32,230 nucleotides of DNA from Nitrospiraceae bacterium. GTDB taxonomy: Bacteria > Nitrospirota > Nitrospiria > Nitrospirales > Nitrospiraceae. Of this stretch, positions 2,058-2,886 are shown piece after piece (the stretch's first letter is position 1; each line of letters begins with the position of its first letter). The stretch spans positions 1-32,230 of the forward strand of contig OMJK01000054.1 of NCBI GenBank assembly GCA_900299325.1. The letters are read 5' to 3'. Made by a program: the position numbers and the translations under genes. Below the pieces are notes generated by a model. It was not told where the DNA came from. It was given only the letters and a program-made list of their open reading frames with translations, and searched no databases.

Positions 2058-2283
2058 GGGGCGCTTAATTATGGATGGTGACTCTACTGTCCAACATGAT
2101 TGTGGACATACTCTGGCACATTCGACAGGCGAACCGTAACATGATGGGATTACTACTTATATACCTCTTACGTAGTATGGCTATGGTGAGACGGCCAGGC
2201 GACTAGCCCGCAACAGATAATTCTCATGTAAGAGCACGTGATTCTACCGCCTTGTAACCGATCCAACCGCGTGGTTCAGTAAC

Positions 2284-2368
2284 GGGGGTGAAGGTCGCTG
2301 GGACAGGGAGGCCCACCCTGCCAGTTCATGGCCTCTGCGTCCTCCTGGAGAGGCCAGCCTTCACCCCC
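2284..2368 (+). ncRNA. Candidate structured RNA (three-way junction) of unknown class
   Basis: Outer stem GGGGGTGAAGG (2284-2294)/CCTTCACCCCC (2358-2368), 11 bp perfect. Arm 1 CTGG-ga-CAGGG/CCCTG-CCAG (2298-2324). Arm 2 GGCCTCT/AGAGGCC (2330-2355) with loop gcgtcctcctgg. Strand is not determined. Confidence 0.45.
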
Positions 2369-2685: not shown

Positions 2686-2886
2686 ATGCAGAAACAGGCA
2701 GGCAAGGTGGGAACCATTCGACGAAACGTTCGCGGAAAGGCCTGTCCCTATTGCGGAGGACACAAGTATCAGCTGGTTCTACGGCCACACTGTTCGCCTG
2801 AAAATGCGGGCTTATTCGCCCGCTGCACCCAATGCCAGCGGCCTCATGGGCTCGATGAAGAATTGGGGCGGATCCTGTGGATGTAA
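2686..2886 (+). CDS. Small zinc-ribbon protein
   Basis: 66 aa with two Cys pairs: ACPYCGGHKY...ARCTQCQRPH. Confidence 0.6.
   Translation: MQKQAGKVGTIRRNVRGKACPYCGGHKYQLVLRPHCSPENAGLFARCTQCQRPHGLDEELGRILWM

Follow-up and report, generated by a model that had tools for sequence, protein, structure and literature searches.

A two-C-loop small RNA of the Nitrospiraceae with a probable role in switching off translation

Almost everywhere, the second step of nitrification is the work of Nitrospira; Rfam and the literature searched yielded no regulatory sRNA family from these bacteria. The locus described here raises the question of whether a short segment able to fold into a three-way junction is an RNA gene in its own right and, if so, what its C-rich loops might do. 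It lies near one end of the window, the 32,230-nt stretch of Nitrospiraceae DNA.

Predicted structure

The segment is closed by a perfect 11-bp outer stem, in which GGGGGTGAAGG (2284-2294) pairs with CCTTCACCCCC (2358-2368), and holds two arms. Arm 1 is GCTGG-ga-CAGGG / CCCTG-CCAGT, with the 7-nt loop AGGCCCA at its tip; arm 2 is a 7-bp stem, GGCCTCT / AGAGGCC, with the 12-nt loop gcgtCCTCCTgg, its tip reading GCGUCCUCCUGG. The parts are as follows:

2284-2368, plus strand: three-way-junction RNA core, the sRNA gene proper (fold z -3.7; 72.7 bits with the refined covariance model R2; covariation; G·U bias)
2284-2295, plus strand: 5' strand of the outer stem (GGGGGTGAAGG and the U of a U-G pair), pairing with 2357-2368
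2297-2325, plus strand: arm 1, ending in C-rich loop 1 (its stem covaries; the GCCC-type loop is near-invariant)
2309-2315, plus strand: loop 1, AGGCCCA (family consensus (U)GCCCAC)
2329-2356, plus strand: arm 2 with anti-Shine-Dalgarno loop 2 (covarying stem, conserved CCUCC columns)
2337-2348, plus strand: loop 2, GCGTCCTCCTGG (CCTCC core at 2341-2345)
2357-2368, plus strand: 3' strand of the outer stem, followed in some relatives, but not in the window, by a T tract that is probably the 3' end

The 11-bp stem, the two arms and both loops claimed in the preliminary description are all present in the sequence, and the minimum free energy structure given by RNAfold for 2284-2368 is exactly the three-way junction described, at -52.2 kcal/mol (z = -3.7). 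In the comparison with shuffled controls that had been proposed, the fold was better than nearly all of them, 1 of 200 being as good as the native one; the minus strand of the same segment folds more weakly (-47.3, z = -2.5).

Homologues and covariation

By blast, the RNA is present as a single copy in its own genome, which rules out a dispersed repeat, and a search of the region against 99 genomes (its own and relatives) gave two weak full-length matches, at 73-74% identity, in genomes of the same genus. Both of these fold alike, with compensatory changes in both arms. A seed covariance model made from the window copy and these two distant homologues (3 sequences) detected the RNA in 76 of the 236 genomes of the order, with E-values down to 1e-26, while the refined model R2, built on 62 distinct sequences, detected it in 84 of the 236, nearly all with one main copy. 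Apart from one chance-level match (25 bits), the order-wide matches all lie within one family, and among 396 genomes sampled across the phylum no match from outside that family passed an E-value of 0.01; the RNA family is confined to Nitrospira and close relatives. Named carriers include Nitrospira moscoviensis NSP M-1 (NZ_CP011801.1) and Candidatus Nitrospira defluvii. In about half of the genus the RNA is absent or decayed, and it is therefore not essential.

An exact-pattern scan also returned many contigs from outside Nitrospira, but these reach at most 25 bits with R2, against more than 80 for true members, and are therefore treated as chance. Two pattern matches on viral contigs (11-17 bits only) were rejected, and a phage or plasmid origin was ruled out, there being no phage match and two chance plasmid matches.

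Among the 62 distinct sequences (aligned by MAFFT, with the tip of arm 1 imperfectly registered between clades), 92.7% of the pair cells hold standard pairs, and 21 of the 29 base pairs show changes on both sides. There are 192 compensatory cells, against 59 in shuffles, none of 500 of which reach the observed value, and against 13-45 in controls in which the structure was slid. RNAalifold, with no structure imposed, recovers these three helices and counts 17 covarying pairs in them. When a single sequence is taken from each of 14 genera, 90.3% of cells are paired and 17 of the 29 pairs are doubly changed, so the signal does not reflect one inherited event. The outer stem is paired in 96% of its cells across the 62 homologues, and U-A/C-G and A-U/G-C exchanges are seen there. 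The fold is real; its conservation, accompanied by compensatory change, puts it far above what chance would give. According to the preliminary description, the candidate was to be given up if blastn found no homologues or if these lacked compensatory changes; since homologues with such changes exist, this did not come about.

The alignment also gives the strand: 183 cells are G·U on the plus strand as against 20 that are A·C and would be G·U if read on the other, so the plus strand is the RNA strand. A minus-strand, CsrB-like reading, with GGA in the loops, is ruled out by these counts and by the side on which the promoter lies.

The most conserved unpaired columns are the cores of the two loops, and the arm stems vary. 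Each of the five CCUCC columns of loop 2 is 94-100% conserved in the 62 homologues, and the GCCCAC columns of loop 1 are 85-98% conserved; the median predicted unpaired probability is 0.92 for the GCCC of loop 1 and 0.87 for the core of loop 2. The RNA thus carries conserved loops, complementary to Shine-Dalgarno (SD) sequences and predicted to be accessible, on a variable paired scaffold. The earlier proposal that a loop is complementary to ribosome-binding sites is upheld, the anti-Shine-Dalgarno-like CCUCC being near-invariant in the family. The second conserved C-rich loop, the (U)GCCCAC of arm 1, had not been noted before, nor had the promoter, the paralogues or the family-wide distribution.

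Promoter and genomic setting

Two further features of the window bear on how the RNA is expressed and on what lies behind it:

2251-2280, plus strand: predicted sigma-70-like promoter, CTTGTAA-(17)-TTCAGT (-35 TTGTAA at 2252-2257, -10 TTCAGT at 2275-2280)
2686-2886, plus strand: small zinc-ribbon gene, CxxC...CxxC, 66 aa (synteny; the neighbour in 64 of 77 loci, not obligate)

From the position of the promoter, transcription is predicted to begin at roughly the base that opens the outer stem. The pattern TTG-(17-21)-TTnAnT, ending a few bases before that stem, precedes 24 of 45 non-redundant homologues, where shuffles gave 0.4 (3 at most); 27 of the 45 have CTTG 30-33 nt ahead of the model start, and in the alignment of the region the boxes are kept and the spacer sequence is variable. 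Behind the outer stem, the window copy has no T tract, its tail being AGCCACTC. TTTT occurs within about 9 nt of the end in 18 of the 84 distinct homologues, and in these lineages the outer stem may therefore double as a terminator. As judged from sequence, by the promoter statistics and by the stand-alone loci and separability from the zinc-ribbon gene described below, this is an independent gene with its own predicted promoter and not the leader of the next one. The one N. moscoviensis transcriptome found was prepared with small RNAs removed (PMC6606698).

The zinc-ribbon gene begins, with its start codon at 2686, 317 nt beyond the RNA, in agreement with the distance of about 320 bp given earlier, and a tRNA-Ser and an FKBP-type isomerase come after the gene. 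The predicted protein appears to be an unnamed family: it has no Pfam or NCBIfam match above cut-off, the nearest being Lar-type restriction alleviation, below cut-off. A palindromic motif, TACCT...CGGTAT, lies at 2560-2576, about 90-150 nt upstream of the gene; it is found in 28 of 84 loci by a strict regular expression (0 in shuffles), occurs at loci without the RNA too, and is perhaps an operator or promoter of the zinc-ribbon gene. Just upstream of the RNA is an IS3-type transposase pair (445-1616, identified by eye); an in-frame stop near 1035 divides its second ORF in two (747-1037 and 1095-1616), which suggests that the element has decayed. The surroundings had been called an accessory region; the decayed element upstream fits that, but the RNA and the zinc-ribbon gene form a conserved neighbourhood.

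This neighbourhood invites the reading that the RNA is a cis-acting 5'-leader element, a riboswitch or attenuator, of the zinc-ribbon gene, which we think unlikely. In 64 of 77 loci the RNA is upstream of the zinc-ribbon gene, which is then the nearest conserved gene in the same orientation, at 43-360 nt in all but one and at about 50 nt in one clade, and loop 2 is predicted to be able to pair with its SD sequence; in the lineages of those 64 loci the linkage leaves some room for a cis role. The spacing is not fixed, however, ranging from 43 to 360 nt and once reaching 1314, and the gene often keeps its own conserved motif upstream, even in loci that lack the RNA. A leader would always lie upstream of its gene and be co-transcribed with it, but the RNA occurs without a downstream gene and the gene without the RNA. 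The zinc-ribbon gene is present in 133 of the 236 genomes of the order, as against 84 for the RNA, many of its carriers lacking the latter; in some same-genus genomes (four loci) the neighbours are kept and the RNA is cleanly gone, and in others (two loci) traces of a decayed copy can be made out. In seven genomes an unrelated conserved plus-strand gene precedes the RNA by 28-155 nt, and a convergent, lipoprotein-like gene faces it, with the stop codon 8-77 nt beyond the RNA; no gene is left downstream for it to regulate in cis, so the RNA is not a 5' leader. Among the unpaired parts, moreover, conservation is highest in the C-rich loops, with no core resembling a ligand pocket.

Likely mode of action

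The reading that we favour, with reasonable though not high confidence, is that the Nitrospiraceae RNA is a stand-alone, trans-acting sRNA that blocks SD sequences through its C-rich loops, independently of Hfq and ProQ; in these nitrifying bacteria it would probably serve to switch translation off. The promoter directly before the structure would start a transcript of about 90 nt. The 11-bp closing stem and the two arms, as the covariation shows, form the three-way junction, presenting the (U)GCCCAC and CCUCC loops, which are near-invariant and predicted to be unpaired. These would pair with G-rich SD regions of mRNAs encoded elsewhere and so block ribosome binding. Neither Hfq nor ProQ was found in 20 genomes (its own and relatives) with working controls, and pairing might proceed without either, the rigid structure replacing the chaperone. 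In type-A carriers the RNA gene travels with the zinc-ribbon gene, whose strong SD might conceivably make it one of several targets. Pairing with this SD is not specific: loop 2 is predicted to pair with it at -10.1 kcal/mol and with the start of a PilZ-like neighbour as well, at -9.7. Such energies are generic to SD sequences and therefore single out no target.

It is also conceivable, if improbable, that the C-rich loops bind a protein (for example a cold-shock, S1 or KH-type protein, or a component of the CsrA circuit) and not SD sequences. A rigid scaffold that carries two short, near-invariant loops would suit a protein decoy too, and 8 of 11 same-genus relatives have CsrA; against this, CsrA binds GGA, and not CCU as on the transcribed strand, no protein partner is linked to all of the loci, and the established precedent for C-rich loops is SD pairing. 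A passive or DNA-level element -- a dispersed palindromic repeat (REP/MITE), an attC-like recombination site or a terminator belonging to the gene upstream -- might be suspected from an intergenic GC-rich near-palindrome beside an IS remnant, with a T tract after the outer stem in 18 of 84 homologues, but is highly improbable given one main copy per genome in conserved synteny, loops more conserved than the arm stems, strand-specific G·U use, a promoter immediately before the RNA and the lack of a T tract in most copies.

The trans-acting reading could be extended to a global translation regulator of nitrite-oxidising Nitrospira, rigid and chaperone-free, in which the loops would jointly mimic the anti-Shine-Dalgarno of 16S rRNA and tune many strong-SD mRNAs, with paralogues specialised in their loops; this we offer as speculation and consider rather unlikely. 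With a mapped structure, a likely promoter and strand and two candidates for the seed region, and with N. moscoviensis and N. defluvii among its sequenced carriers, the family is directly testable.

Paralogues and a second junction element

Several genomes carry one to three extra, more diverged copies of the RNA. In one paralogous subfamily, GGTGGAGG...CCTCCACC, the RNA follows a conserved small ORF (about 67 aa), 25-96 nt after its stop codon (ten loci); this ORF and the RNA together may mark a second regulatory locus. Another subfamily, GGATGGAGG...CCTCCATCC, keeps GCCCAC and has a C-rich second loop. Four other Nitrospira contigs carry near-identical copies of another three-way-junction element, GCTGGTGAAGG...CCTTCACCAGC, with loops ACCGGCC and GTAA/GCAA, which scores only 21-25 bits with R2 and may or may not be related to the family:

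L140, 1508-1586, minus strand: second three-way-junction element
L144, 5473-5550, minus strand: second three-way-junction element
L155, 1764-1842, minus strand: second three-way-junction element
L168, 1767-1845, minus strand: second three-way-junction element

Comparison with known RNA families

At gathering thresholds Rfam 15 matched only tRNAs in the window, and cmscan at relaxed E-values gave only chance-level matches at the RNA, in the window and at six homologous loci; the Infernal/Rfam scan that had been suggested thus leaves it, as first described, an unassigned structured RNA. The family is previously uncatalogued and, by its structure, new. It resembles the motifs reported in surveys of 26 and 50 genomes for candidate structured RNAs (PMC8632094, PMC11109978) in being an intergenic, covarying three-stem junction without known function; the main texts of the two papers do not mention Nitrospira.

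Kinship with the rhizobial CCUCCUCCC-loop families, put forward in the preliminary description, is not supported, as those RNAs have three or four separate hairpins with an identical 9-nt loop (PMC3927594, PMC10746234). In the alpha-r14 type each hairpin bears the same CCUCCUCCC (PMC3927594), and NfeR1 of Sinorhizobium silences ntrB in trans at its ribosome-binding site through anti-SD loops (PMC10746234). With alpha-r14/NfeR1 and the CCUCCUCCC-loop sRNAs SmelA075 and SmelA099 the Nitrospiraceae RNA shares ultraconserved anti-SD loops on variable stems and the presence of paralogues; unlike them it is one closed three-way junction, in which two different loops, CCUCC and GCCCAC, are joined by the closing stem.

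The mycobacterial B11/6C RNA has two C-rich loops that pair with ribosome-binding sites, act redundantly and bring about repression (PMC10470900). No match to 6C (RF01066) was obtained at the RNA, in the window or at six homologous loci, and the RF01066 cut-off (47 bits) was reached in none of 20 genomes, a threshold at which the Corynebacterium glutamicum control was itself only sub-threshold. Like 6C/B11 of the Actinobacteria (e.g. Mycobacterium), the RNA is small and structured, has exactly two C-rich loops and belongs to a host without known Hfq or ProQ chaperones; it differs in that its conserved loops are GCCCAC and CCUCC and not runs of C, and in its phylum and flanks. By the features tested it is not a member of the 6C or the rhizobial CCUCCUCCC families; by its likely mode of action it falls in the class of SD-blocking C-rich-loop sRNAs. 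It looks like an independently reached answer to the problem of regulating through SD sequences where Hfq and ProQ are lacking, and in this it can be compared with 6C in Actinobacteria.
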